DNA from: a virus
IMG/VR virus record: IMGVR_UViG_3300020439_000094
Coordinates: 1 to 22,072 of that record
Length of the DNA: 22,072 nucleotides
Strand: one strand, 5' to 3'
Positions within the stretch are counted from its first letter, which is position 1; every line of letters starts with the position of its first letter. A program made the position numbers and the translations under genes. The notes beneath the pieces were generated by a model, which did not search any database, was not told where the DNA came from, and saw only the letters and a list, made by a program, of their open reading frames with translations. Positions 3,162 to 22,072 of this stretch are shown here, one piece after another.

Positions 3162-6100
3162 TCAGACTTTATTGGTAGTAAAATTCACAACATAATTTGC
3201 GGTTGTTCCAGCACCAGCAGTTGCAAGTAAGCGAATCGCACCACCAGCAACATCAACATCAAAGGTTACTAAGTTACTAGTATTAAAGACAGTTCCATAC
3301 TCAGTCAGATATGCATCTGTACCATCATGAAGTGCAAGAAGTTTTGTGAAGTGGAAATTAGGACCCTGAGTTACCTGAATAGAATATTCTACTGAACGAT
3401 AAGTATTTACTGCGAGCTCAGAATGTAAGATAATTTGATCGGTAGTACTTCCAGCACCAACTAAGGTGTTGGAATATGTCATCGTGTTCGCAAAACCAGC
3501 ATTTGCGGTTACGATATTTGATACAGTTACATTATTAGGAAGACCAACTTTTATCTTCTTATCTGATGATCCACCACCAATATTAGTTAATGCAGTTTCA
3601 ATCTCATCAGTTGTTCCTTCAATAATAAGAGTCTCGCTACTCAGATCTACTGTAAGAGCACTACCTGCCTGATCATCCTTAACACTCAGAGTAAGTGCAT
3701 CAATCTCAGTATCAACATATGCTTTGATTGATTGTTGAGTTGCAAGTGCGGTATCACTATCGGATACCATATCATCTTCATCAAGAATAGAACTGACATC
3801 AACTGTAGAAACACCAAGTTGTAAAGTGGAGATTGTTCCAATACCACTTACATCTAAGTTACCCGCATTATCAATTTTAACGAACGTGGTTCCAGAACCT
3901 GCTGGTCCAAACTGAGCACTATTAGAAACTGTGAGATTTGTTGTATCAACATTTGTACCGGCAATAGAACCAGTAATACTAATATCATAAGTTCCTGAAA
4001 GTCTTTCACTTGAAATTGTTCCAGAAGCAATATTAGAACCATCTAAAAGTGTAAGATTTGATCCATCTCCATAATAAGTTATGATACCACTTATAGCAGT
4101 TACAACACCTGCACTAGAAACTGAAAGATTTCCTAATCTAGCACCACCACGAACATCCAGTTTTGCGGATGGATTTGTGGTTCCAATACCGATTTCATTC
4201 GACGAGTAGTCAAATACAAACTCACTAGAACCATCAATCAGACCTGCGGCATTATGATACTGGACATTTGTTATGTTTCCACCAGCAGTTGAAACACCGA
4301 CCACAGGAGGTGCAGACCAAACCCATCCGCCATTTCCATCTGCAACAGGAACTTGCTGAATATTGCCAGAAGCATTACTAGCATCATAAAGACCACCACG
4401 GACTCTAACGTCTCCGGCAACATCAAGAAGTTGTGTTGGAACACTCGTTCCGATTCCAACATTATCAGTTACGTTGTATATTTCATTTGTAGACTCACTT
4501 CCTCTCCAATAATCAAGAATTGGGCGAGAAGAAACATGGTCATTATTAAATTTGACAATCTCTACTTGATCACCGGCATATGCACCAGCATTTAAATAAA
4601 CATTCAGACCATTCGTTGCCGTATAATCAGAACTAGAAAGTTTAACACCGTTCAGGAATACGTCAATTAATCCAGGAGTATAATTTGTAGTGAAGGTTGT
4701 TTGACCAGCACCAGCAGTTGCATTAAATGTCGATCTTATTGTGGTATTAACATACCAATCAACATTTCCATCACCATCGGTTCTTAAGAAAGTTCCCTCA
4801 AGTCCATCATAATCTGGGAAAGTATATTCACTACTACCAGTTCCAACAGTAAGTCTTGCAGTTGTGGTAAATCCAGTTACATGAACATCACCATGAACAT
4901 CTAACTTATACTCAGGTGCTGTGGTTCCAATACCAACTTTTGCAGCACTATCATCATAGTAGAATCCAGTTCCAGCAGTTCCGATTGAAACGTCACCGCC
5001 TGTAATGCCAATACCATTCTTAACATCAATAGTAGAAGCAGAACCGAAAGTGGCAATACCAGTTACAAGTAAATCACCAGTTTTTATATTAGTAAGAGAA
5101 GCACCGATAGCAGTAATCTCAGCACCAACGTTTGCGCCATCAACAATCAGTGCTCCATCAATATTAACATTACCACGAATGTCTACAATATGATTTTCTT
5201 TTGGTGAAAATGTAGTAGTACCAATACCAATTGAAGAAGTCGTGTCTCCAAAAGAAACATTAATATCATCATTAAAGGTAGAAAGACCAACAACCTCAAA
5301 GTCTTGAGTTGTCGTTACTCCAGTAACACCCAGAATATTCAGAGTAGAAATACCAGATACATTTAAGTTATCAAGTTCGGTAAGACCAACAACATCCAAA
5401 TCTGCGATTGGATTTGTGGTTGCAATACCAACATTACCAACAGAAGTAACGACAAATGGATTTTCGGAAGTACCAACCTGCAGAGCCTGCAGAGGATTTA
5501 CGGTTCCAATTCCTAAATTATGCTCAAGAAGAGAGAATGAATTGACAACACTTACCTCATTACCAATACGATCATGATTCTCGGATTGATAGTAAAGAAC
5601 AGAAGGAGTTTGCTTGGTAACTACAATCTGAGTATATGCATTTGATGCGCCAGGTGTTCCATTATGAGTTACTCCAGTAGTATACTCAGTTGTTCTATCA
5701 GATTCAAGGTAGAACTTAAGTCTATGATTCGTATTTGAAGAATCTTCTTGGTCAAAACGATAAGTCTTTCCAGGAACAAACTGAATATAAGGTGCCTCAT
5801 CACCATCAAATAAGAATGAGCGATTATCACCAACACCAGTATAACGGTGATTAGCAGTCTTACTAGCAGAAGAAGTTACCGTAATATCAACAAAAGACTT
5901 GTGCTGCTCACCATAGTAATCTGCAGTAACTTGCTTAGCAGTTAAACTTTCGGTTACATCTACATCAATATTAAATGTAGAAATGCCAGTTACATATGCA
6001 GTACCATCGACATGCAATTTAGATGTAGGAACCGTAACTCCAATACCAACATCACCAGAAATATGAGCGTTACCAGCAACATCAAGTTGTTGTCTTGGTT

Positions 6101-8435
6101 GATTGTTCTGATTAAATAAAGTTCCGATACCAATATAAGAACTGGTGCTAATCGTAAATACTCTTCTATTTGCTTCACCGTCATGGATTCCAAATGCTCC
6201 ATCATTATCATCGGCAAAGAATTCCCAGTCTCTATTATTATCTCTTGTCTTTAAGAAAATTCTAGCATTTCCTTTGCCGGGATTTTCTAATATAAAATCA
6301 GCATGAGTCTCTTGACCCTGAACAGTATCCTGCCTATAAATGTGAATGGAAGCCTGTGGTGCTGTGGTTCCTATTCCTACTCTATTTCCAAACGTAGAAA
6401 TACCAGAGACATCTAAATTAGCACCTACAAATAACTGAGACCCATCAAAAGTAAAGTTAGAATCATCCTCAAGTTCACCAGAAGGTCCAGAGATAACGAC
6501 TCTATTATCTGTCAAATCTTCTACTTTAAGTGAAGATACATTAATACCACCATTTGCGTCTATTAATGATGCAAATGTAGCAATACCAGAAACATTTAAA
6601 TCATCAAGTTCGGTTTGACCTACAACATCCAAATCGGCAGTTGGAATTGTGGTTCCAATACCTACATTTCCAGTAGAGTCAATCGCAACTCTTGATGAAC
6701 CAGAGGTATAGAAGACTAATTTATCATCATCACTACCAGGACTCTCTTCAGCTACAATAAAAGTATCACCGTCTACATCCTTAACTCCACCAAGAGATCC
6801 CCACTGACCACCAGCACCATATCCTTCAAAGGTGTCATTAGTAGTGTTATATCTAATTTGACCAGTAACGGCAGTTCCTACTGCATCTCTCTCGGCAGTA
6901 GTACCAACAGGAATCTGAATAGAGTTAGTGCTGTCAAAGATAACTCTATCTTCAAAGGTGGAAATGCCAGATACATTAACAGTTCCATCGGTTCTAATTA
7001 CAGTTCCTGTAGTCGCAGAACCAACGGTTAACTCCGTTCCTGTAAATGTAAAGTTACCATCATCCTCAAGTTCACCGCCAGTTCCGACAATAACAACACG
7101 GTCATTTGTCAGGTCTTCTACCTTAAAGGTATTTGCCTGACCACCATCATTAATATCTACAAGTCCATTAAATGTAGAAATACCAGCAACTCTCAGAGTT
7201 CCGTTAATATCAAGCAGCGACTCTGGTGTTGTAGTAGCAATACCAATCTTGCCGTCAGAAATTATACGTGCTCTTTCTTCGTCATTTGTTCCAAGAATAA
7301 GAGTATTGGAAGCAGGAGAATGTATCGTCGTTCCTGTTCCAAGACTTAATGTATCAGCAGAAAGTCTTTCCGTTTGGTCAATCTGATAGACCTTACCAGA
7401 TGCAATATTAAAGTTCTCGCTAGACTTTAATGAAGTGGAAGCATTATGATATAAAAGTGTTTTTCTATTACCATCCGTTCCTATACCAAGTCCTGCACCA
7501 TCAAGCAGAATGTCGTCGGTACAAGTTGTGGCAATACCGACTACCTTATCGGCAATATTTACAGTCGTAGAATCAACTTGGAAGTTTGTGCCCTGAACGT
7601 ATAGATCACCCTGAATATAAACATTACCACTCGTCGTTCCAACACCAACAGGATGTGGGTCAATAATAATATTTTCTGGTCCAGAGATTGTTACGGTTTC
7701 TGTCTGACCAAGAGAAATATTAGAGTCAAAAGTGGCATCACCAATTACAGAAAGACCTGCGCCAACAGTTACATTTAAATCAACACCAAGACCACCGTCA
7801 ATCTGAACAGCACCAGTATTAGAGTCACCTAATACATTATCAGTTGTATCAGTAAATGTGGCAAGACTACTGATTCCTAATGTGGTAAATGTTGCACCAG
7901 CACCAGGAACAGCAACACCTTTAATACCAGAATATACGGCACCACTAATATAAATGGAATTACCAGCAACCTCTGCTGGAAGATTAGTTCCAATAAAGTT
8001 TAAAGTTCCAGACGCATAATCAAAGAACCATTCTTCATTCGTTTCTGCAGCAGATAGCGTTGTACCAGAAGCAGCGGCAGAACCAGCTTGCCCAGAAGTA
8101 TGAGCATAAACTTTAATCAAATATGTTGGTCCTACTTCAGGAGGAATCCAATCAATACTTTGTGTTTTCCAAGTTCTATTAGCAGTTGCAGTAGTATCAG
8201 GAACACACTCAATAGGAGCAGTTGTAGGATATACAGTTACAACACCAGCAGAAGTTGCTGGCATGACACCAGGAATTAAGTCTGCCTGTGACCAAACATT
8301 TTGACCACGGGTAAAAAGAGGACTTGGAATTGATTCGTTAGTTGCACCCTTAACAGAATTTACGTCGGTTTTAGCTCTGCCATAACCGACTTTCTTCCAA
8401 AGATAATCAACCTTTTGGGTATCTGTAATTGCCAT
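3162..8435 (-). CDS. Giant modular tail fibre-like virion protein, 1757 residues
   Basis: Very long repeat-built structural protein, probably a fibre. The start has AGGAG and GGT elements about 14 and 5 bases upstream, overlapping the 15-base gap after the 882-residue gene. The first 180 residues are a unique N-terminal region (MAITDTQKVDYLWKKVGYG). The body carries at least eight copies of a motif like VGIGTTxPxxxLDVxG followed by VSGISTF. It also has two copies of LKVEDLT...RVVI...GELEDD and one copy of the 122-residue module found twice in the 786-residue protein, near residue 494 onward. Residues about 847-965 are a cupredoxin-like domain with lost copper ligands. Near residue 1245 is a copy of the FLNGVKLSSSDYTATNG module, also shared with the 786-residue protein. 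The C-terminal 120 residues form another domain (YRSVEYSIQV, LLALHDGTDAYLTEYG, FDVDVAGGAIRLL) that I recall from cyanophage structural proteins. The exact place in the virion cannot be told from sequence. Confidence 0.87.
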   Translation of the reverse strand: MAITDTQKVDYLWKKVGYGRAKTDVNSVKGATNESIPSPLFTRGQNVWSQADLIPGVMPATSAGVVTVYPTTAPIECVPDTTATANRTWKTQSIDWIPPEVGPTYLIKVYAHTSGQAGSAAASGTTLSAAETNEEWFFDYASGTLNFIGTNLPAEVAGNSIYISGAVYSGIKGVAVPGAGATFTTLGISSLATFTDTTDNVLGDSNTGAVQIDGGLGVDLNVTVGAGLSVIGDATFDSNISLGQTETVTISGPENIIIDPHPVGVGTTSGNVYIQGDLYVQGTNFQVDSTTVNIADKVVGIATTCTDDILLDGAGLGIGTDGNRKTLLYHNASTSLKSSENFNIASGKVYQIDQTERLSADTLSLGTGTTIHSPASNTLILGTNDEERARIISDGKIGIATTTPESLLDINGTLRVAGISTFNGLVDINDGGQANTFKVEDLTNDRVVIVGTGGELEDDGNFTFTGTELTVGSATTGTVIRTDGTVNVSGISTFEDRVIFDSTNSIQIPVGTTAERDAVGTAVTGQIRYNTTNDTFEGYGAGGQWGSLGGVKDVDGDTFIVAEESPGSDDDKLVFYTSGSSRVAIDSTGNVGIGTTIPTADLDVVGQTELDDLNVSGIATFASLIDANGGINVSSLKVEDLTDNRVVISGPSGELEDDSNFTFDGSQLFVGANLDVSGISTFGNRVGIGTTAPQASIHIYRQDTVQGQETHADFILENPGKGNARIFLKTRDNNRDWEFFADDNDGAFGIHDGEANRRVFTISTSSYIGIGTLFNQNNQPRQQLDVAGNAHISGDVGIGVTVPTSKLHVDGTAYVTGISTFNIDVDVTESLTAKQVTADYYGEQHKSFVDITVTSSASKTANHRYTGVGDNRSFLFDGDEAPYIQFVPGKTYRFDQEDSSNTNHRLKFYLESDRTTEYTTGVTHNGTPGASNAYTQIVVTKQTPSVLYYQSENHDRIGNEVSVVNSFSLLEHNLGIGTVNPLQALQVGTSENPFVVTSVGNVGIATTNPIADLDVVGLTELDNLNVSGISTLNILGVTGVTTTQDFEVVGLSTFNDDINVSFGDTTSSIGIGTTTFSPKENHIVDIRGNVNIDGALIVDGANVGAEITAIGASLTNIKTGDLLVTGIATFGSASTIDVKNGIGITGGDVSIGTAGTGFYYDDSAAKVGIGTTAPEYKLDVHGDVHVTGFTTTARLTVGTGSSEYTFPDYDGLEGTFLRTDGDGNVDWYVNTTIRSTFNATAGAGQTTFTTNYTPGLIDVFLNGVKLSSSDYTATNGLNVYLNAGAYAGDQVEIVKFNNDHVSSRPILDYWRGSESTNEIYNVTDNVGIGTSVPTQLLDVAGDVRVRGGLYDASNASGNIQQVPVADGNGGWVWSAPPVVGVSTAGGNITNVQYHNAAGLIDGSSEFVFDYSSNEIGIGTTNPSAKLDVRGGARLGNLSVSSAGVVTAISGIITYYGDGSNLTLLDGSNIASGTISSERLSGTYDISITGSIAGTNVDTTNLTVSNSAQFGPAGSGTTFVKIDNAGNLDVSGIGTISTLQLGVSTVDVSSILDEDDMVSDSDTALATQQSIKAYVDTEIDALTLSVKDDQAGSALTVDLSSETLIIEGTTDEIETALTNIGGGSSDKKIKVGLPNNVTVSNIVTANAGFANTMTYSNTLVGAGSTTDQIILHSELAVNTYRSVEYSIQVTQGPNFHFTKLLALHDGTDAYLTEYGTVFNTSNLVTFDVDVAGGAIRLLATAGAGTTANYVVNFTTNKV
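5541..5897 (-). other. Degenerate cupredoxin-like domain inside the 1757-residue fibre protein
   Basis: Residues about 847-965 show the order expected for a cupredoxin-like beta-sandwich: PGKTYRF, then NHRLKF with His904, then TEYTTGVTHNGTPG, a beta strand, and LYYQSENHDRIGN at the end. In copper-binding relatives the last loop carries Cys-x2-His-x2-Met. Here the corresponding residues are Ser951, His954 and Ile957, so Cys and Met are missing. I infer a structural domain that no longer binds type 1 copper. The family assignment is by motif only. Confidence 0.55.
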
Positions 8436-8450
8436 TTTTACCTATAACTC

Positions 8451-11099
8451 CTAACTTATGCTAAGGCTTGTTATTGATTGACCAGAATTTAATGCGATTC
8501 TCACCAAAACAACATTACCAGTAGCATTTGTCATATTTTCTTCACCAAGTGTCATCGTATAAGAACCACTTAATGAGGTGTTTGTCAAAATTCTACTTCC
8601 ATTATTGGAAGCACATCCATCACTACCATTACCACCTGCACCAGTATTAGAACCAGGAATACCAGAACCAGCATATGTGACACTAGTATTCAACCACTTG
8701 TTCAATCCGCTCGTATTATCAATTTGGGTTCCTGGTGCAGCAATCCAACATCCGGCAATACCGGTGGAAGTAATATTAATATTGAAGTTTGCAACAACTG
8801 TTCTTCTGAAAGCAAAAGTGAAGTACTGAGTTCCAGTATCCCCACTTCTGTCAGGTCCACCAGTCGGCAGATATCCAGAAGAATAATCATTAGTGTTATG
8901 TTCAATAAGTCCATCACCACTAGATCCCTGAATTCTTACAGTTGCTTCCCGTGTTCCCTGCACTCCTGGATCAGAAGATTCGGTATAAGGATTGCTTGTA
9001 TAAAAATTGGTAGCACTATTGAATGATGGTGTATCTGTGGTTTCTCCACTCAAGTCAAAAATTCTCACGCCATCATCAGTATAAGTCTCACCCAAACTAT
9101 TAGAAACGTCAATTGCAATTTCACTAATACCAGCCTGAGCAGTCTTGTGAACTCTAATAATAGTAGGAATTGCGGTATTATATGACCCAGTTCCTTCTAC
9201 ATTTCTTGCTCTTACCCGAATCTTATCAACAGTTCTTACCAAATTACCAGTAATATTAACCGAAAGGTCTCCGATTGCATAGGCACCACCAACTCCAGTA
9301 TTTACGTTTGGTATTCCACCCGTAAGCATGGAAGAAGCACCATCAATATCCGCATAACTGTAATCAGTATTGGTAGTTGCACTAGAAGACGTTCCTTCCT
9401 GATTTGTGGCATTATCAACTTCAACAATATTACTCTGATTGGTATAGCACTGACCAACTAAGTTAGTAATCGTAACTCCAGAAAGTGTAAGATTGCCACT
9501 TGTATAATAAGGAATACCGGAGATATATTTCTTAGAACCCGATGCTTCTGTTAAGGTTGCTCCAGAAACATCCACTACAGGAACTGCAGTAAGATCGTCT
9601 TTTACAAAATCAACTCTATTCGTATCTCCAGTTACACTATGAGATAACTTCATACTATTCGCACCCGTAGAAATATTGCTAGTATTCTTTGCGACTCTTG
9701 CTTTAAATCCTTTTGCAAATCCAGGATAGTAAATGCTATTTGCAAATGATACTGAACTACCACCTGCATTCAAAAGGTTATAATCACTCTCAGAATCTAC
9801 AACAAGACTGGTATATGTTCCACTATTATTAGCAGAAGATAATGTAACATTACCATCATCTACTTCATTTACTAATGCAGTAAGAGTTCCGTTATCCCCA
9901 TCAAAAGCAAATGTTGATATTGGACCTGCAGTTACAGTTCCACTTCCACTATCAATACGAACAACACTATTACCAGCACTTAATGTAGTTCCGCCACTTA
10001 CATTATCTGTAAATCCAGAAGCAAGTCTTGGGGAAGAACCCGTAGAAGAAGGAGAAGAAATTGTCTTAGAACTTAATCCATCAGGATTTGCTGGATTATT
10101 ATCATAAACCTTCAACTGTTTTGTTATGGAAGGTTCTCCGGCAATAACAAGAGGATCTGAAAGATCATTTTTAGTTACTTTCAGTAAGACAGTATCTCTT
10201 CCTGTAGACGTGTGAGTAACTGGTGATGTAGTCCAAGTGTGCTGAAGTCTTGCAGCATTATCTCCACTACCACCCGGTGCAGTTGAAAGAATGCCTACCT
10301 CTTCTGATGTTCCATCTCCCCAGTTGATAGTAAATTCTGCATTCATTCCCACTCTATTACAGTGAGTAGTGTTATTATCAAGATATAAAGAATCACCTTC
10401 GATTACATAAAGATCATTTCCAGATAACGGAGAACCTCCAGTTGATGCTCTATAAAGTTCAAATGCAGGAACTGGATTTGGAGTATAAACAACATAACTC
10501 CAATCAGAAGTTACTGTGAATGAAGATCCAGCACCAACACCATTTGTATTGAGTGCAGTAACTGTTGGGGTAAAGATTCCACCTTCCCCAGCAGTATTAA
10601 AAGTATGATTTACTGTGTGATTATCTTCGGGTCCATTAGAAGTCTGAACGTTACCATCACCCCAATCAATAATGTACTGATTTGCATTACCAATTGAATC
10701 AATTTCAATATCAGTAACTAGAGGATCTCCATCAGTCCTCTGACTCGTCGTCAAAGAAACTCCGGTTACCGCAGTATTCTTAATAATATTAAATCCAAGT
10801 TCATTTAAATCATCAATACTATTGACAACAGAAGAGTTACTAGTAAAAGTATTAAGTGCTCCGGGAGTAACAATATCTCCATCAGAAGGAGTGCCTAATG
10901 TAAGTGCTCCACCTTCTCCAAGATAAATCGTAGATCTGGTAGTTCCACGAATCTCCAGTTCATGTCCTGGAGTAAAGATAGTAGTGCCAATACCAGTACG
11001 ACCAACAACCTCAAGCACTTTAACAGACTCTGTGCTTCCTTCTACACCTATTTTTTGTTGTTGTTGTCTTCCACTAAGGAATTTAATCGGTGCTACCAT
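8451..11099 (-). CDS. Virion structural protein with two PKD-like domains, 882 residues
   Basis: Large beta-rich protein, probably part of a fibre or of the particle surface. Residues about 112-186 and 230-310 each contain a PKD-like signature: YIIDWGDGN at 142-150 and FTINWGDGT at 256-264, each followed by a conserved His-containing strand (HTF, HTW). PKD domains are immunoglobulin-like folds used in surface adhesion. The N-terminus (MVAPIKFLSGRQQQQKIGVE) and the early GRTGIGTTIFTPGHELEIRG segment echo the GIGTT motif of the neighbouring fibre proteins. The final 130 residues contain GCWIAAPGT, GAGGNGSDGC and GNVVLVRIALNSGQS, which resemble the ends of other cyanophage structural proteins. 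The start follows the 114-residue gene by 9 bases with only a weak AAGAAA binding site. No catalytic motif is seen. Confidence 0.85.
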   Translation of the reverse strand: MVAPIKFLSGRQQQQKIGVEGSTESVKVLEVVGRTGIGTTIFTPGHELEIRGTTRSTIYLGEGGALTLGTPSDGDIVTPGALNTFTSNSSVVNSIDDLNELGFNIIKNTAVTGVSLTTSQRTDGDPLVTDIEIDSIGNANQYIIDWGDGNVQTSNGPEDNHTVNHTFNTAGEGGIFTPTVTALNTNGVGAGSSFTVTSDWSYVVYTPNPVPAFELYRASTGGSPLSGNDLYVIEGDSLYLDNNTTHCNRVGMNAEFTINWGDGTSEEVGILSTAPGGSGDNAARLQHTWTTSPVTHTSTGRDTVLLKVTKNDLSDPLVIAGEPSITKQLKVYDNNPANPDGLSSKTISSPSSTGSSPRLASGFTDNVSGGTTLSAGNSVVRIDSGSGTVTAGPISTFAFDGDNGTLTALVNEVDDGNVTLSSANNSGTYTSLVVDSESDYNLLNAGGSSVSFANSIYYPGFAKGFKARVAKNTSNISTGANSMKLSHSVTGDTNRVDFVKDDLTAVPVVDVSGATLTEASGSKKYISGIPYYTSGNLTLSGVTITNLVGQCYTNQSNIVEVDNATNQEGTSSSATTNTDYSYADIDGASSMLTGGIPNVNTGVGGAYAIGDLSVNITGNLVRTVDKIRVRARNVEGTGSYNTAIPTIIRVHKTAQAGISEIAIDVSNSLGETYTDDGVRIFDLSGETTDTPSFNSATNFYTSNPYTESSDPGVQGTREATVRIQGSSGDGLIEHNTNDYSSGYLPTGGPDRSGDTGTQYFTFAFRRTVVANFNINITSTGIAGCWIAAPGTQIDNTSGLNKWLNTSVTYAGSGIPGSNTGAGGNGSDGCASNNGSRILTNTSLSGSYTMTLGEENMTNATGNVVLVRIALNSGQSITSLSIS

Positions 11100-11108
11100 T
11101 TTCTTATA

Positions 11109-11453
11109 TTAGAGGTTAGATGTTTCAAGAACGCTGGCCAAGAAATTCAAATCTGTGGCATCACTACCAAGAATGGATAAACTGTCTCCACTTTCAACAA
11201 CCAATTTTCCAGAAAGAAGATTGGCAGTATCACTCGCAGGAATTGCCAAATCTTTGACAATTGGAGTTTCTATATTAGAACCATCTGCAGTTCTCTTATA
11301 GTTGAAAGTCATATTATGTGTTTGAGTTCCAAGATTTGTTACCTGAGATAACAATACAACACCAGTATATCCACTTGGTGCAGTATAAAATACTGAAGAC
11401 GCAGTGCCTACAGTTTGAGTAAAAGTTCGGAATACGTTTACTGCAATTGCCAT
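11109..11453 (-). CDS. Small virion structural protein, 114 residues
   Basis: Short beta-rich protein (MAIAVNVFRTFTQTVGTASS) with few charged residues and no Cys. It sits between two giant structural genes, 3 bases after the stop of the 1041-residue gene, and has a purine-rich binding site GGGGGAGA 7 bases before its ATG. The segment VFYTAPSGYTGVVLLSQVTN and the later IPASDTANLLSGKLVVESGD look like one compact beta-sandwich domain of the kind common as fibre caps or connectors. I know similar small proteins in this position in cyanophage genomes but cannot name a function. The close spacing implies co-expression with its neighbours. Confidence 0.8.
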   Translation of the reverse strand: MAIAVNVFRTFTQTVGTASSVFYTAPSGYTGVVLLSQVTNLGTQTHNMTFNYKRTADGSNIETPIVKDLAIPASDTANLLSGKLVVESGDSLSILGSDATDLNFLASVLETSNL

Positions 11454-11456
11454 TTA

Positions 11457-14400
11457 TTAATCTCCCCCTAATGCTAGAATGAATGGTGTGACCTGACTGA
11501 ACAAACTCTTAACGTAAACATCACCAGTAACTGAACCAGCAGCTTGGTCAATCACAACACCATCACCAATTCTAAAGTTACCGTCTTGATCAGTGCTTGT
11601 ATATACAACTTGACCTCCATCAATTTTAACAACCTCATTTTCTTGAATTGTTACACCACCCTTAGATGGATATGCAGACTCAATTGTATTACCAGCACCG
11701 ATGTATTGGAATGAATGAGAACTTACAATTTGGAAACTTTGTCTTGCAAAGAAAACTGTAGTTCCTACACCTACTGCATTATTTAGAGCATTATTTAAAG
11801 TCACCGTAGAGACACCAGCAACAGGTGCTGTTGCAGATTGAACAGTATAATAAATTGGACGAAGTGTGACTTCTGCAGTTGCAGTTACCCCAGCACCTGG
11901 TGGCGGATCGATTGTAATTTGAGGATTGTCCTCAATAATATACTGTGTTCCACTTGAAATAAGATCAATTAACGTTACTCTTCCATTTTCAACAGTTGCG
12001 ACTGCTGTTGCATTAACAGCAACACCAGGACCAGTTGGAGAATCAATCTCTACGGCAGGAGGATCAACATAACCAGATCCAGGATTTGTGATTACAACAG
12101 TATCAATTTCATAATACTTACGGTCAAAGAAAAGTGCCTGTCCCTGATAAGGTCTATTGTTTCCAATACCAGAAACAAAAATCCTATCCTGAAGAGATTC
12201 TGTAGGAGAATTTATATGTCCAGTATATCGATCAACAATTTTACTTGTTTGATCGCCAAGACCTTCAGAAACAAGACCTTTAGTTCCAAAAGAAGAGTTG
12301 GAGTTAGTCAAATCACACTGACCACCACCCCCGGTATATACTGCAATATCATCACAAATAGTAAAGAGTGAAACTAATTGTGCATAAGCACCATTAGTAA
12401 TAGACATTCCAATACCACTCTGATTATATTGGGTGTAAGAGTCAACGTTAAATGAACCTTGAACACCAATATCTGTTAAGACATCCCCTTCTTCTGCATT
12501 AAATCCGTCAATCTTAGCACCAACACTTCCCGGAATAAAATTGGTACAGTTACGAATGTATGGACCTTTTGTAATAACTCCCGTACCAGCACCGTATGGA
12601 GGATAAATTTTACCACCATTTACATAAGTATGTACAATAGTGCTAATGCCAACATTCATAGTTACATCATCACCAGATACACCAGTAACCTTAAATGTAT
12701 ATCCATTTGTTCCATCTGGGAAGAATGTTGTGGTGACTCCTGCAGAACTTCCGCTATAAGGAAGAACTGTAATAGTTCCAATCATACTCTGATGACCGGA
12801 AACACTACACTGATAATAATATGTTCCAGGAGCTGATGGTGTCCAAGTAACAGTATCAGTTCCTTCTCCAGTAGCTGCGGGATTGCTTACACTTGCCCCA
12901 TCATCTTCTACTCTAATATACATCGGATGTGCTCCACCCAAAGCAGAATTATCAAATGTAATTGTGTCTCCTGCCCATACTGTTATGCCAGGGTCATTTG
13001 CATTACTATGAGTAGTTGTACGGTCAGTTCCACTAATTACATAGTCGGAACCGTTTCCGGAAAGAGTATTAAACGTAAAAGAAGAACCACAATTAAACTC
13101 TAAATTTCTTAACTCTACAGTATCTCCTACCTTAACTTTTACACCAGGAGAAGTTACAGTTACAATACCAGTTGACTCTGTATAAACTGCTCCGGTAATA
13201 TCCAAAGACCTATCAACAATAAATCCACCAGACTCATAAGTATGCTCAAGAGTTGAGACTCCAACACGAATTGAAATTATTCCATTACTATCAATTCTTT
13301 CAATCGGGAATTCATATCCATAAGCACCGGATGGGAATACCTGAGTTGTAGTTCCAATTCCAGTTCCTGAATGGCAGGAAAAAAGTAAATCTCTAAATTC
13401 TACTCTATCACCAACTTTATAATTTGAGTTTGCAACTGTGAAAGTAACAACTCCACTCAAATTATCATATCCAGCACTTGTAACTAAGTCTATAGTATCA
13501 AATCCGTCTCCACCATTTCCAGGATAAGTTGTTGTAAATCCAGTCGTTGCAGGATTTCCATCAATACCATTTTGAATAATACCCGTTACAATCCCAACGC
13601 AAACGGTGATAGCAGAATGAACATTTGCACAAGAACCAAAATCATGATTCGATCCAGTAGCACTATCTGCCTGAATACTTAAATCTCTAACTTGCCCATA
13701 CTCCGACTGATATCCTCCTGCCCAAAGATGATTGTTAATACATGAACGAGCAATACCAACTGAATAATTAAAGGCATCTATTGTTGTTGCGCCAAGTCCA
13801 ACAATATGATCTAAATTTCCATTAATATCAAAATATTTCTTACCTGCTTCTATACATTTAGAATTACCACCCCTAGTAATATCATGACATACTGCAAGAT
13901 ATACATCCTTAATATCATCTGCACAACTTTCAGTTGTTACAGAATTCATAGAGAATCCTGGATAGTCATTACTGTTTAAATATCCTACAGTTTCTTGTGC
14001 AATAAAATCAATATTTTGACGAATCAATCTTGCGGCATCAAAAAATCTGTCAGTAGACACACCAGCAAGTGGTCTATATGACATAACTGCAGCACCATCC
14101 TGAGATGGTTCTCCAACAAAACTTAAGTCTGTTAAATGAACACCCTGAGCAATATAAAATAAATCTAACTCAGGATTTTTTGGTTGTACCAAACACCGAC
14201 GAAGTTCTAGACCTTCAATCGATACATTATCAGGAATATAAATTGGATTCTCTTCTAAGTAAGTTCCTGGGAAAACCTTTACCGTATCACCAGGAACTGC
14301 TGCGGCAACCGCAGACTTAATAGTTGCTTTGGCATTAACTTCATTTAAACCACTATTTAAATCGTTCCCTTCGCTGGTTACGAATAAAGTTTTGCCTGGT

Positions 14401-14582
14401 GTGCTGACACTTCCAGCACCAATCTCTACTAATCTGGTACCAATTCCAGTATTATTCTGCTGCTGTTTGAAGAAAACTTTTCCATCATAAAAGTTTAGAG
14501 CTAATTCACCTAGCTGCAGCTGATCTGTAGTCGGTCTCTTACCGGGTACGGCAGACCGTTTAATCCTTATTGGAGTGGCCAT
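11457..14582 (-). CDS. Beta-helix-type virion protein with embedded cupredoxin-like domain, 1041 residues
   Basis: Large structural protein. Residues 1-60 (MATPIRIKRSAVPGKRPTTD, LGELALNFYDGKVFFKQ) resemble an attachment region common at the start of cyanophage fibre-like proteins. Residues about 64-160 have a right-handed beta-helix pattern (GKTLFVTSEGND, AVPGDTVKVFPGTY, NPIYIPDNVSIEG). Residues about 377-455 and 471-658 are two copies of one module with KVGDxVExRxLxFxC, FPxGxxGYxF and VGxST..HTY.xGG. The second copy is interrupted by a plastocyanin-like domain at 502-612 with His552, Cys592, His597 and Met600. Residues about 828-905 contain GSGY-type repeats (ITNPGSGYVDPP). The C-terminus has YTSTDQDGNFRIGDG. 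A late promoter octamer lies 48 bases upstream; the local ribosome site is weak. Probably a fibre or baseplate-associated protein; which one is not determinable here. Confidence 0.87.
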   Translation of the reverse strand: MATPIRIKRSAVPGKRPTTDQLQLGELALNFYDGKVFFKQQQNNTGIGTRLVEIGAGSVSTPGKTLFVTSEGNDLNSGLNEVNAKATIKSAVAAAVPGDTVKVFPGTYLEENPIYIPDNVSIEGLELRRCLVQPKNPELDLFYIAQGVHLTDLSFVGEPSQDGAAVMSYRPLAGVSTDRFFDAARLIRQNIDFIAQETVGYLNSNDYPGFSMNSVTTESCADDIKDVYLAVCHDITRGGNSKCIEAGKKYFDINGNLDHIVGLGATTIDAFNYSVGIARSCINNHLWAGGYQSEYGQVRDLSIQADSATGSNHDFGSCANVHSAITVCVGIVTGIIQNGIDGNPATTGFTTTYPGNGGDGFDTIDLVTSAGYDNLSGVVTFTVANSNYKVGDRVEFRDLLFSCHSGTGIGTTTQVFPSGAYGYEFPIERIDSNGIISIRVGVSTLEHTYESGGFIVDRSLDITGAVYTESTGIVTVTSPGVKVKVGDTVELRNLEFNCGSSFTFNTLSGNGSDYVISGTDRTTTHSNANDPGITVWAGDTITFDNSALGGAHPMYIRVEDDGASVSNPAATGEGTDTVTWTPSAPGTYYYQCSVSGHQSMIGTITVLPYSGSSAGVTTTFFPDGTNGYTFKVTGVSGDDVTMNVGISTIVHTYVNGGKIYPPYGAGTGVITKGPYIRNCTNFIPGSVGAKIDGFNAEEGDVLTDIGVQGSFNVDSYTQYNQSGIGMSITNGAYAQLVSLFTICDDIAVYTGGGGQCDLTNSNSSFGTKGLVSEGLGDQTSKIVDRYTGHINSPTESLQDRIFVSGIGNNRPYQGQALFFDRKYYEIDTVVITNPGSGYVDPPAVEIDSPTGPGVAVNATAVATVENGRVTLIDLISSGTQYIIEDNPQITIDPPPGAGVTATAEVTLRPIYYTVQSATAPVAGVSTVTLNNALNNAVGVGTTVFFARQSFQIVSSHSFQYIGAGNTIESAYPSKGGVTIQENEVVKIDGGQVVYTSTDQDGNFRIGDGVVIDQAAGSVTGDVYVKSLFSQVTPFILALGGD
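12747..13079 (-). other. Inserted plastocyanin-like (type 1 copper) domain
   Basis: This encodes residues 502-612 of the 1041-residue protein. Visible features are AGDTITFDN, then AHPMY with His552, then TVTWTPSAPGTYYYQCSVSG and HQSMIGTITV. The residues His552, Cys592, His597 and Met600 have the order and spacing (C-x4-H-x2-M) of a type 1 copper site, and GTYYYQC...GTITV matches the last two strands of plastocyanin-like folds. Comparison with the intact module copy at residues 377-455 places the boundaries between NCGSS and AGVTTTFFP. Copper binding is inferred. Confidence 0.65.
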
Positions 14583-14642: not shown

Positions 14643-15014
14643 TCAGGAAGCATTATTTCTTCTTGGTCTATATTTAAACAAATTAGTAGGAGGTTCTGGT
14701 CTCATCCAATCCTTAATTTTTTCATACCTATCAACATCAAAAAACTCCTGAGAAAGATACCAATCTTCCACAGGAGTATGACCTTTATCTTGATTACATT
14801 CGTGACAGGCACACAGAACATTCTTCGTAAAATCTGTTCCGCCCTTTGCTCTTGGCACAATGTGATCTATTGTGAGGTTCTCATCAGACCCACAATAGGC
14901 ACACTCCCAATCCCATTCTTCCTTTATCTTTGACCTCCATAATCTTTTTGCTTCTGCAGAACTCGTTGTTTGGAGGTTAAAGACATAGGCTTGAGGAGAA
15001 TTGTAGAGAGGCAT
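14643..15014 (-). CDS. HNH endonuclease, free-standing, 123 residues
   Basis: Predicted metal-dependent HNH nuclease. The zinc-ribbon and beta-beta-alpha motifs are complete: C38-x2-C41 (CAYCG), LTIDHIVPRAKGG with Asp50-His51, Asn65, and C70-x2-C73 followed by N-x2-KG (CHECNQDKG). The length is typical for small phage HNH proteins. Both neighbours are intact, so this is a free-standing gene and shows no sign of lying in an intron. Phage genes of this class often act as homing endonucleases that spread themselves and flanking DNA between related genomes; that role is inferred here. No strong ribosome binding site is visible, and a TCTAAATA octamer at 15035-15042 is a weak promoter candidate. 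Confidence 0.88.
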   Translation of the reverse strand: MPLYNSPQAYVFNLQTTSSAEAKRLWRSKIKEEWDWECAYCGSDENLTIDHIVPRAKGGTDFTKNVLCACHECNQDKGHTPVEDWYLSQEFFDVDRYEKIKDWMRPEPPTNLFKYRPRRNNAS

Positions 15015-15054: not shown

Positions 15055-15885
15055 TCAGAATCCATACCTATTTTTTACTGCATCATAATTTTGTGCTATT
15101 TCTGCTGGTGTTAATGCCGAGGAATAAATTCTAACTATAGAAATACGACCATTATATTCACCACGATAATTGCTACCAGATTTGTCAGCAATACCTATAC
15201 CATATGTACCTTGTGATTGTCCTTTTGGTGCAAAGGTCGTCATACTGGCAACATTAACTTTATCGACATAAACGTTTGCAATCTTGCCCGTTTCCGCTCC
15301 CGGACCTGGCCAAGATTCCGATACAAGAACATGTTGATGCCAGGTTTGAGTTGATGGATTCGTACTATAATCAACTTGTGTCTCCGTTCCATAAGTATTT
15401 GTATGAACAAGACTATTATATCCAAATAAAAGCCCGTTATTGTTTGCTGCACCAGAACTCCAATCAGCAGATGCGGAATTTGTCCATAAACAACCATCCA
15501 CCCATGGATTTACATCGCTACCACTATTAGGCGTAGAAGCAGCATCATAATAATTCCAAATTTCAATAGTAAAATATGAACCTAGTGTAAGTGAACTTCC
15601 AGGTAAAGTAAAACATCCTTGAGTGCTGTCATAACTAGGACCATCTGTCCAATCAAACCACCCATTAGAATCATAAACTACCTCAGAAGAACTAGTTCTA
15701 GTGAAGTTTCTATTGTTACTAGTCAAATCATACCATGTAGATCCAATTCCAGAATAACTTAGAGTTCTTCCTGCATCAAGAGCAAGTATTAATTGACCAC
15801 CGTAGGTATTAGTAACTATTCCAACTAAAGAGTTTTCTGGTGATAGATTTATCCAATCATTAGTTGGTCCTGAAAATACTCCCAT
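15055..15885 (-). CDS. LamG/concanavalin-like adhesin candidate, 276 residues
   Basis: Probable receptor- or carbohydrate-binding virion protein. From residue 29 the sequence GGQLILALDAGRTLSYSG, then STWYDLTSNNRNFT, then the beta-rich middle and the ending YNGRISIVRIYSSALTPAEI plus NYDAVKNRYGF follow the pattern of Laminin-G-type (concanavalin-like) domains found in phage and bacterial surface proteins. The upstream 521-residue protein has the same framework and a closely related ending (FNGKISNVKIYKGKGLTATE), so the two are tandem paralogues. Start and stop overlap by one base (TAATG), so translation is probably coupled. No signal peptide or membrane segment is present, which fits a virion protein. 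Confidence 0.8.
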   Translation of the reverse strand: MGVFSGPTNDWINLSPENSLVGIVTNTYGGQLILALDAGRTLSYSGIGSTWYDLTSNNRNFTRTSSSEVVYDSNGWFDWTDGPSYDSTQGCFTLPGSSLTLGSYFTIEIWNYYDAASTPNSGSDVNPWVDGCLWTNSASADWSSGAANNNGLLFGYNSLVHTNTYGTETQVDYSTNPSTQTWHQHVLVSESWPGPGAETGKIANVYVDKVNVASMTTFAPKGQSQGTYGIGIADKSGSNYRGEYNGRISIVRIYSSALTPAEIAQNYDAVKNRYGF

Positions 15886-17450
15886 TAGATTCCAAACCTC
15901 CCTTTGAGTGCGTTAAAGTTTTGTAAGACCTCTGTTGCCGTAAGTCCTTTACCTTTGTAAATTTTCACATTAGAAATTTTACCATTAAAAAAATTATTTC
16001 CTGGTCCACTATCACTTTCTTCACCAATTCTCAAACCATTAGTTCCTGCGTCGATAAGAGATTTACTTACAGTCATAGAACCTTTAAGTACTCCATTAAG
16101 ATAAAACTTTGTTTCATTAGTTCCAGTCCCTTCTCTTACTAATGCAAAATGATACCAAGTATCTACTGAAGTTGAAGCATTAAATTCAGCATATTCAAGA
16201 TTTGTACCTGATGTTCCATCATAAGCAGCAAATGCTATTTGAGTTGCGCTTGAAATTCTTAATATCCAATTTCCATTATATGGATGAGTATAATACTTAT
16301 TAGAACATAATAATACTTGAAGTGTAGTCGTTGCAGATTTATTAAACCACCCTTCAAGAGTAAAATTACCTGTTCCAAAATCCAAATCACTTGACGCAGG
16401 TAATTGTACATAATCATTAGTTCCATCAAAATCTAAAGATCCGAGATTAGAAGAATTAAAAGTTGCTCCAGTTATAGTTCCATTATTACCTTTACCACTT
16501 ATATCAGTCCAACTATTGTTATTGAATCCTGCTGATTGAGGTGTAACATCCGCAGTATTAGTAGATGGGAATGATCTTCCAGCACCCCAGATAATTCTTA
16601 CAGCACCACCAGCAGCATCACCATATCCATCCGCACCTCCACCATAGTTACCACCAATGTTACTAGTGCCGTCTCCTCCACCAGATCCGCCACGACCACC
16701 CATAGCATTATCATTATTAGTTTGAGAAGAACTATGAGTACCAATTCCGGCAGCACCGCTAGCACCCTCACCAAGTATACCAACTCCGCCACCTGCTCCA
16801 GATGCACTACTAACTTGTCCTTGAATAGCCCATCCGCCACCACCACCGCCGCCTGATCCGGCACTTACTTGGACAGAATGACTCGCATTATTAGTTCCAC
16901 CATCACCACCAGCACCAGAATAACCACCAGCGCCTCCTCCACCTGCGCTATAACCAGGACCACTTCCATAAAGTCCACCTCTTCCACCTGCTCCACCAGT
17001 TCCGGCAATTACGGCACCGCCAGCAACTTGTGTCGATTGTTGAGATTGCCTTATTTCAGTTTCGCCACCACCTGCTGCTACTGTTGAAGTATTAATAAAA
17101 TAACTATCTCCACCATCAGCGCCTACTCCAGACACCCCATTAACTCCAGCAGCGCCTACTTCAACTGTATATGACTGTCCAGGTGTTACTGATATATTAT
17201 TGGCATAAGCGAGAGCTCCACCACCACCACCGCCAGACCAACTAGTATCATTATTTCCTCCTCCACCACCAACACAAACTACAGATACTGAAGTTACATC
17301 ATTAGGAGCAGTCCAACTATATGTTCCTGATGTAGTATATGCTTGTTGTCCTTGAGCAAAAATTTGATTTAATGACCTAACATTTCCAGCATCCAGTGCT
17401 AATACAAGTCCATCAGTAACTACTCGTGGGTTATAACCAATCGCCATCAT
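15885..17450 (-). CDS. LamG-type adhesin candidate with large glycine-rich insertion, 521 residues
   Basis: Probable host-recognition protein. Residues 12-26 (TDGLVLALDAGNVRS) are the opening strand of the LamG-type domain, and residues 312-521 hold the rest: WTDISGKGNNGTITG, LDFDGTNDYVQLP, NFTLEGWF, TWYHFALVREG, KFYLNGVLKG and NGKISNVKIYKGKGLTATEV. Between them, residues 27-311 form a Gly-rich block that begins with GTYSWTAPNDVTSVSVVCVG, contains many runs of 3-7 Gly and ends in GGAVRIIWGAGRSFPS. Gly-rich blocks occur in adhesins such as gp38 of some T-even phages, where they pack as polyglycine helices; that comparison is by analogy. The start overlaps the zinc-ribbon gene stop by 4 bases (ATGA). 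A CATAAATA octamer lies 19-26 bases upstream. Confidence 0.85.
   Translation of the reverse strand: MMAIGYNPRVVTDGLVLALDAGNVRSLNQIFAQGQQAYTTSGTYSWTAPNDVTSVSVVCVGGGGGNNDTSWSGGGGGGALAYANNISVTPGQSYTVEVGAAGVNGVSGVGADGGDSYFINTSTVAAGGGETEIRQSQQSTQVAGGAVIAGTGGAGGRGGLYGSGPGYSAGGGGAGGYSGAGGDGGTNNASHSVQVSAGSGGGGGGGWAIQGQVSSASGAGGGVGILGEGASGAAGIGTHSSSQTNNDNAMGGRGGSGGGDGTSNIGGNYGGGADGYGDAAGGAVRIIWGAGRSFPSTNTADVTPQSAGFNNNSWTDISGKGNNGTITGATFNSSNLGSLDFDGTNDYVQLPASSDLDFGTGNFTLEGWFNKSATTTLQVLLCSNKYYTHPYNGNWILRISSATQIAFAAYDGTSGTNLEYAEFNASTSVDTWYHFALVREGTGTNETKFYLNGVLKGSMTVSKSLIDAGTNGLRIGEESDSGPGNNFFNGKISNVKIYKGKGLTATEVLQNFNALKGRFGI
16518..17372 (-). other. Glycine-rich insertion within the LamG-type domain
   Basis: This encodes residues 27-311 of the 521-residue protein. 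It separates LVLALDAGNVRS from NSWTDISGKGNNGT, whereas the neighbouring 276-residue paralogue runs from LILALDAGRTLS to STWYDLTSNNRN in a few residues. The block starts and ends with its own conserved-looking edges (YSWTAP..VTSVSVV and AVRIIWG..RSFPSTNT), so it behaves like a self-contained module. By eye its DNA is full of short ccacca-type repeats on the plus strand. Confidence 0.7.
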
Positions 17451-18139: not shown

Positions 18140-18832
18140 TTATTCCTTTAGTTTATTTAATATAGTTTGATATGCTTCAATTATATCACCTTCACCCTTA
18201 CGAAATAAGTCTTTATCCATACTTTTATCATTCATTCTCAACCTACATCCATCTGGACTAATCTCATCGGCAACGACAATATTACCTTCAACCGTAGTAC
18301 CAAACTCAATCTTAAAGTCAATCAAAGTAATTCCAATCTTCTTGAAGATATCAGAAACAACCACATTTGTTTCTGCGGCATATTGTTTCATTTGTCTTAG
18401 ATTTTTATATCCCATGACACTCAATCGGTCTTCTGTCAAAAGAGGGTCATTCTTACTATCGTCCTTCAAATAAAATTCAATAAGAGGAGGACTAAATTTT
18501 GTATCCTTTGGAATAGTTGTCTGCCTTACAATAGAACCGTCGGCATAATTTCTAACAACAACTTCAATTGGAATAATTTCAACCTTTTTACACCTCATTA
18601 ATGCTGGTCCAGCATACTGAATGAAATGAGTTTTGATACCTGCCTTCTCCAGTTGTTTAAAGATAAGGCAGGAAATCTCATTATTAATCTTACCCTTACC
18701 TTCTGGATAGTCTTCCTTCTCACCATTACCTGCGGTAACTTTATCATGATAGTGAATCAGAACTTGGTCTTCTTCCACAGCCTGAATAACACTCTTTACT
18801 TTACCCTTTACAATCAATTCATTCGGTTTCAT
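18140..18832 (-). CDS. purC: Phosphoribosylaminoimidazole-succinocarboxamide (SAICAR) synthase
   Basis: Purine synthesis enzyme that joins CAIR and aspartate using ATP to give SAICAR. Its 230 residues are the usual bacterial length. The first family signature is present at 86-100 (IIPIEVVVRNYADGS), with Asp98 where Thr or Ala is usual before Gly-Ser. The second is intact at 170-178 (LIDFKIEFG), followed by ADEISPDGCRLR and MDKDLFRKGEG near 188-214. The ATG follows the purN stop by 9 bases, and the AGGAG ribosome site overlaps that stop (TAGGAG), so purN and purC form a coupled pair. purC is a known auxiliary metabolic gene of cyanophages, thought to help supply purines during infection. Confidence 0.96.
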   Translation of the reverse strand: MKPNELIVKGKVKSVIQAVEEDQVLIHYHDKVTAGNGEKEDYPEGKGKINNEISCLIFKQLEKAGIKTHFIQYAGPALMRCKKVEIIPIEVVVRNYADGSIVRQTTIPKDTKFSPPLIEFYLKDDSKNDPLLTEDRLSVMGYKNLRQMKQYAAETNVVVSDIFKKIGITLIDFKIEFGTTVEGNIVVADEISPDGCRLRMNDKSMDKDLFRKGEGDIIEAYQTILNKLKE

Positions 18833-21248: not shown

Positions 21249-22072
21249 TCACAAAGCATTGCCTCGTGGCAACACTTCCTCTGGAAATACAAAGTTCTCA
21301 TGCGGTTGATCTACTGGAGCCAACCAGGAACGGAGTCCTTCGTTGAGCAAGATATTTTTTGTATAGAAGGTCTCAAATTCAGGATCTTCAGCAGCACGAA
21401 TCTCCTGACTCACAAAATCGTATGCACGAAGGTTGAGTGCAAGACCGATGATCCCGATAGAGGAAGTCCAAAGACCCATGACAGGAACAAACAGCATAAA
21501 AAAATGCAACCAACGCTTATTACTAAACGCAATACCGAAAATTTGCGACCAAAAACGATTGGCAGTAACCATTGAATAAGTTTCTTCTTCTTGGGTGCTG
21601 TCAAAAGCTTTGAAAGTGTTTGCTTGTTCACCATCTTGATACAAAGTATTCTCTACTGTAACACCATGGATGGCAGAAAGCAATGCACCACCCAGAATAC
21701 CTGCAACACCCATCATGTGAAAGGGGTTGAGCGTCCAGTTATGGAATCCCTGGAGGAATAGAAGGAAGCGGAAGATCGCTGCAACACCAAATGACGGCGC
21801 AAAGAACCAACTGGACTGTCCAAGAGGGTAGATGAGAAAAACACTAACAAATACGGCAATAGGGCCCGAAAAAGCAATCGCATTGTACGGTCTAATTCCT
21901 ACGAGACGACTAATCTCAAATTGCCGAAGCATGAATCCTATGAGAGCAAAGGCTCCGTGGAGCGCCACAAAATTCCAGAGTCCCCCAAGTTGGATCCAGC
22001 GGACGAAATCTCCCTGAGACTCAGGACCCCAAAGTAGAAGAAGAGAATGACCCATAGCATCAGCAGGAGTCG
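21249..22072 (-). CDS. psbD: Photosystem II reaction centre protein D2 (3' part, start beyond the window)
   Basis: Core photosystem II subunit of the thylakoid membrane, binding P680 chlorophyll and the quinone QA. The frame is open to the right edge. Counting back from the normal 352-residue end, the window holds residues about 80-352. Key residues are intact: His117 (accessory chlorophyll), Tyr160 (the redox-active tyrosine D) with His189, His197 (P680 ligand), His214 and His268 (non-haem iron) and Trp253 (QA pocket). The C-terminus is [12 protein letters not shown], as in cyanobacteria. G+C is near 50 percent in a sampled line, against about 33 percent in the next gene, a sign of host origin. 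Cyanophages carry psbD to keep photosynthesis running during infection. A stable terminator follows. No frameshift or intron is seen in this part. Confidence 0.98.

Follow-up and report, generated by a model that had tools for sequence, protein, structure and literature searches.

A predicted cupredoxin domain inserted into a cyanophage tail-fibre protein, with relatives in other virion proteins

Results

The tail-fibre gene and its surroundings

The window, that is the whole stretch of DNA analyzed here, is an IMG/VR fragment of 22,072 nucleotides, and all the features located on it below lie on the minus strand. Its open reading frame 11457..14582 encodes a tail-fibre or virion structural protein of 1041 amino acids, which is matched over its full length by the PHROG 17885 'tail fiber protein' profile (916 bits, E 5e-275) and has orthologues with 48-61% identity in S-SKS1 (L001) and in three further sequences (L005-L007). 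The closest isolated relative is the 'tail fiber protein' of S-SKS1, which has 928 residues and is 59% and 49% identical over the two aligned halves. A partial psbD gene, encoding the D2 protein of photosystem II, occupies 21249-22070 at the end of the window, and therefore the virus is a cyanophage, in agreement with the photosynthetic host assumed in a preliminary description of this DNA. Identity of this gene to cyanophage copies is 92-93%, both for a frame of S-T4 annotated as D2 and for a frame of S-SKS1 annotated as D1; the latter annotation is apparently wrong.

Directly upstream of the tail-fibre gene lies a free-standing HNH endonuclease gene (14643-15014), whose position is conserved in relatives. 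The two neighbouring genes at 15055-15885 and 15885-17450 encode LamG/concanavalin-like C-terminal domains, accompanied in the second by a glycine-rich domain, and S-SKS1 has no counterpart of them at that place. The auxiliary metabolic gene purC (SAICAR synthase) is found at 18140-18832.

An insertion in the second of two tandem modules

The 1041-residue protein contains two tandem modules, A being uninterrupted and B carrying extra residues, and this architecture, already recognized in the preliminary description, was confirmed by alignment to relatives. Module A (residues 377-455, 13218..13454) has the loop FSC-HSGTGI-GTTT; module B is divided into an N-terminal part (approximately residues 463-498, 13089..13196), ending in LEFNC, and a C-terminal part (approximately residues 615-659, 12606..12740), beginning with GVTTTFFP. 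The insert (12744..13079) consists of the 112 residues, 502-613, that separate FNCGSS from AGVTTT. An anchored alignment to the window protein shows both modules uninterrupted in S-SKS1, L005, L006, L007 and L009. Module B of these relatives follows the pattern F-S-C-(DSSYA or DSGAGI)-G-x-T-T-x, with a loop of 5-6 residues, whereas 116 residues run from the Cys to GVTTT in the window, a net gain of 110-111 residues over the empty loop. The extent first proposed, 111 residues at 12747-13079, agrees with this gain and was short, trivially, by one codon at one end.

Relatives with and without the insert, whose comparison had been suggested as a check, were looked for among 90 orthologous frames, defined by the conserved block that follows the loop. 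The domain occupies the module-B loop in only one other contig (L004, the same as L142), which shares 95-98% identity with the window. A pattern placed the loop in 21 of the 90 frames, and its length is 3-6 residues in 14 of these 21. From these alignments the insert is most simply read as a lineage-specific gain.

One orthologue (L010:4001-7405) contains an unrelated module of 113 residues within its module-B loop, at the position of the insert. Because a different module is found there, the loop seems to be tolerant of passengers and may be an insertion hot spot. The borders of the insert have only GTTCT in common, which is not convincing as a target-site duplication. The neighbouring HNH gene was considered as a mobiliser and rejected, since it is found in relatives both with and without the insert.

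The insert has the fold of cupredoxins

Structure prediction and sequence profiles together make it almost certain that the insert adopts a cupredoxin fold. The core of the domain (residues 508-606, 12765..13061) is matched by the family profile with E = 6.9e-38. The best PDB match of the single insert sequence is auracyanin A (1.2e-5). A profile of 40 relatives retrieves amicyanin (7.6e-7, along the entire domain) and plastocyanin (1.5e-6), besides pseudoazurin and nitrite reductase, and in these matches the ligand columns are aligned. When the four ligand columns were set to X, the ranking still consisted almost entirely of cupredoxins, with plastocyanin, auracyanin, pseudoazurin, amicyanin and nitrite reductase at the top; the scores became weaker, the best being that of plastocyanin (0.006). 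Since the masked profile still ranks cupredoxins first, though weakly, the kinship is supported by more than the motif.

The AlphaFold2 model of the insert, built with 35 natural sequences, has a pLDDT of 94.4 and a pTM of 0.87, with nine strands in the expected order. Foldseek returned 48 PDB matches with E<=1e-3, and copper proteins account for 50 of 50 among the matches listed, including nitrite reductase (8.4e-6), rusticyanin, plastocyanin, auracyanin and pseudoazurin; TM-scores against solved cupredoxins are moderate, about 0.55, with an rmsd of about 5 A. Both the model and these matches agree with the Greek-key beta-sandwich of 7-8 strands that is typical of the superfamily. Structure prediction and fold search, which had been proposed as the way to examine the domain, have therefore given a cupredoxin fold. 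A model of the two modules together with the insert was poor (pLDDT 53) and was not relied on.

The domain had been called plastocyanin-like, and this holds for the fold but not for the ligand loop, because its spacing is C-x4-H-x2-M and not the C-x2-H-x4-M of plastocyanin. The Pfam profile PF00127 matches 31 of 40 family members, the window copy falling below the cut-off (20.3 against 21.2 bits); with the plastocyanin profile TIGR02656 the window copy reaches 20.9 bits, below the cut-off of 87.85, and the amicyanin profile TIGR02657 matches 30 of 40 members weakly and the window copy not at all at E 0.01. On these family cut-offs and profile matches, and on the plastocyanin loop, the window copy was rejected as a member of plastocyanin or amicyanin proper.

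Four putative copper ligands are conserved together

The order of type 1 copper sites, His ... Cys-xn-His-xn-Met, is followed in the insert by His552 (codon 12927..12929), Cys592 (12807..12809), His597 (12792..12794) and the axial ligand Met600 (12783..12785), the same residues that were picked out initially; sequence and alignment confirm them, and they are conserved in relatives. In the numbering of the AlphaFold2 model, H57 stands just ahead of strand 59-62, while C97, H102 and M105 lie between strands 91-97 and 106-112, as expected. Cupredoxins usually have Asn directly behind the first His; in the insert family this residue is Pro in nearly all copies.

All four ligands are invariant in 40 of 40 aligned copies, in which they make up half of the eight invariant columns. 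Copies with four ligands were counted in 55 of 58 cases from IMG/VR, 15 of 15 from isolates, 38 of 40 from cellular genomes and in one actinophage copy, the motif-based part of this retrieval being biased to copies with PGTYYYQC. Short peptide patterns served for the IMG/VR and genome scans, and some of these patterns span the Cys, the second His and the Met; no pattern includes the first His, and the tblastn searches were pattern-free. Loss of Cys and His in all relatives, named beforehand as evidence against a copper site, was not what we found: among clusters at 70% identity (median pairwise identity 0.39), 59 of 61 keep all four ligands and the other two have none, and the column conservation of the ligands is 0.97-0.98 against a mean of 0.54. 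Because each cluster retains or lacks the ligand residues as a set, one metal site is favoured, and at the level of sequence the co-conservation of His, Cys, His and Met is the pattern of a joint site. A disulfide role of Cys592 is unlikely, as it is the sole Cys within the domain.

The same conservation bears on a different explanation, in which the beta-sandwich with cupredoxin fold would be a pure Ig-like adhesion or spacer domain, with the ligand residues serving packing or binding metal incidentally. Beta-sandwich domains are common on phage surfaces, the copies of P-HM1 and MED4-213 were named Ig-like by their depositors, and ligand-free copies persist in virion proteins. However, the ligands are among the most conserved columns and are lost jointly or not at all; it would be unusual for a Cys, two His and a Met to be kept for packing alone, and the 40-sequence alignment has no conserved second Cys for a disulfide. 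We regard this explanation as rather unlikely.

The window contains a second, degenerate copy of the domain (5562..5855; profile E 2.8e-7), at approximately residues 863-960 of the 1757 amino acids encoded by the open reading frame 3162-8435, in which the first His is kept, the Cys is replaced by Ser and the Met by Ile. The fold can thus serve without metal, since a few copies, including this one, have lost ligands. A related frame of L006 (7436, residues 791-890) retains H, C, H and M.

The spacing of the ligands also distinguishes the insert from characterized cupredoxins. Most relatives have C-x2-H-x2-M, as does amicyanin (PDB 1aac family), whereas the window copy and its nearest domain relatives have C-x4-H-x2-M, a long loop combined with a short one, and the window copy has Pro after the first His; moreover amicyanin is a free periplasmic protein and the insert is part of a tail fibre. 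Plastocyanin, which phages also encode as PetE, shares fold and ligand order with the insert but is a photosynthetic electron carrier and not a virion module. Auracyanin A has the C-x4-H spacing of the window copy, and rusticyanin is among the best fold matches; both differ by a longer H-to-M loop and are membrane or periplasmic electron carriers of bacteria.

The domain is widespread among virion proteins

The domain was first seen as inserted into this one protein, which is correct, but it is not peculiar to it. A tblastn search at E<=1e-3 found it in 313 of 50,697 phage records, nearly all of them cyanophages, and most of the matches correspond to the C-terminus of gp9, the connector between baseplate wedge and tail fibre. 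The cupredoxin domain makes up the last 100 residues of S-SSM5 gp9, a protein that 287 records match over 80% or more of its length, and the gp9 C-terminus carries the domain in most marine T4-like cyanophages. Against the PDB, the similarity of S-SSM5 gp9 to T4 gp9 and gp10 is confined to the N-terminus; the cupredoxin end therefore belongs to the cyanophage protein. In gp9 (PHROG 677, T4-GC 398) the same domain, with four ligands in every copy read, is a fixed C-terminal part, whereas the copy of the window is specific to one lineage and interrupts a fibre module.

Further carriers are the proximal tail fibres of S-SCSM1 and P-SSM2, with the domain near their start, a subtilisin-like protein and an actinophage. 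In the T7-like cyanopodovirus P-GSP1 a protein starting with the domain (L139:3944-5944) adjoins a gene annotated as tail fibre, and S-SKS1, which lacks the insert, carries the domain two genes downstream (11049-11348 of its genome). The cellular relatives are mainly proteins of marine Bacteroidetes, including Flavobacteria, some of which have by eye a lipoprotein-like signal. As judged from sequence, this domain is a mobile module that is shuffled among virion proteins and has its best representatives in gp9.

In public annotation the members are named hypothetical, Ig-like, tail fibre or peptidase. The fold has long been known; we found no description of a virion cupredoxin in the openly licensed literature, where absence is not proof, and the ligand-complete cupredoxin module in virions is new relative to that literature. 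Among published ideas, iron in phage tail fibres comes closest (PMC11705849). The virion proteome of S-SM1 is reported to comprise 41 proteins, in a passage that does not name gp9 (PMC3037559).

Discussion

We infer copper binding, ligand geometry and any role of the insert, be it stability, adhesion, redox activity or copper carriage, from the features described above. The reading that we favour, and consider on the whole fairly probable, is that of an independently folding cupredoxin insert that is predicted to take up copper and that most likely serves fibre attachment, adhesion or stability. According to it, the domain would have entered the beta-hairpin loop of the second tandem module, probably by recombination with another virion gene; a self-contained beta-sandwich could sit in such a surface loop and leave the fibre module undisturbed. 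Copper is the likely metal because of what is established for cupredoxins, and the isolated domain can be expected with good confidence to bind it at the His-Cys-His-Met site. Phage assembly takes place in a copper-poor cytoplasm, so the ion would most likely be acquired after lysis or outside the cytoplasm; whether mature particles carry the copper is, in our estimate, evenly balanced. A beta-sandwich locked by its metal would be exposed at or close to the tail fibre, and the copper may either lock the fold or take part in the contact.

A role in attachment, display or adhesion is suggested by the positions in which the domain recurs, namely the C-terminal end of gp9 and the initial part of proximal fibres. 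The most likely job would then be fibre attachment, surface adhesion or stability, and we judge a structural or adhesive role somewhat more probable than a redox one. A function in electron transfer, or in sensing redox conditions, at the host surface could be argued from the well-studied members of the family, whose type 1 sites carry electrons; however, no redox partner domain is present in the 1041-residue protein and we know of no such role in a virion, so that this use of the domain appears very improbable.

A further explanation is that the site binds another metal, or that the domain is a metal carrier or receptor decoy, a copper version of the iron 'Ferrojan/Trojan Horse' that has been proposed for phage tail fibres. 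It could appeal to the domain in lipoprotein-like proteins of marine Flavobacteria and to iron-binding HxH tail fibres (T4 gp37; Alteromonas phage R22Y), which likewise have a metal site in the fibre and whose motifs have been discussed for engaging metal-uptake receptors (PMC11705849). Those fibres, however, hold octahedral iron by paired histidines, with neither a cupredoxin fold nor a Cys or Met ligand, whereas the ligand set of the insert is that of type 1 copper. No suitable copper-uptake receptor of marine picocyanobacteria is known to us, and on balance a different metal or a carrier function is improbable.

Returning to a copper-locked, attachment-related domain, a broader extension can be proposed only tentatively and is somewhat doubtful: most marine T4-like cyanophages might have genuine type 1 copper centres at gp9 and in their fibres, functional in adsorption or fibre deployment, and would then be copper-binding particles of the ocean. 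To our knowledge, few metal sites are known in virus particles. A conserved set of type 1 copper ligands in gp9 and in the fibres of these abundant marine viruses would tie adsorption to copper chemistry, would offer a testable rationale for a domain whose present labels are 'unknown' or 'Ig-like', and would be a copper counterpart to the idea of marine phages carrying iron. The distribution also shows that a single domain has been shuffled between proteins found in the virions of different phages and on the surface of marine bacteria.

Two minor observations concern copies outside phage structural genes. The family profile also matches a free frame of 112 amino acids in Syn2, which is probably PetE. 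In marine Bacteroidetes (L084-L123) the ligand-complete domain is found in small lipoprotein-like and in large repetitive surface proteins, and some of these genomes carry it at several loci.
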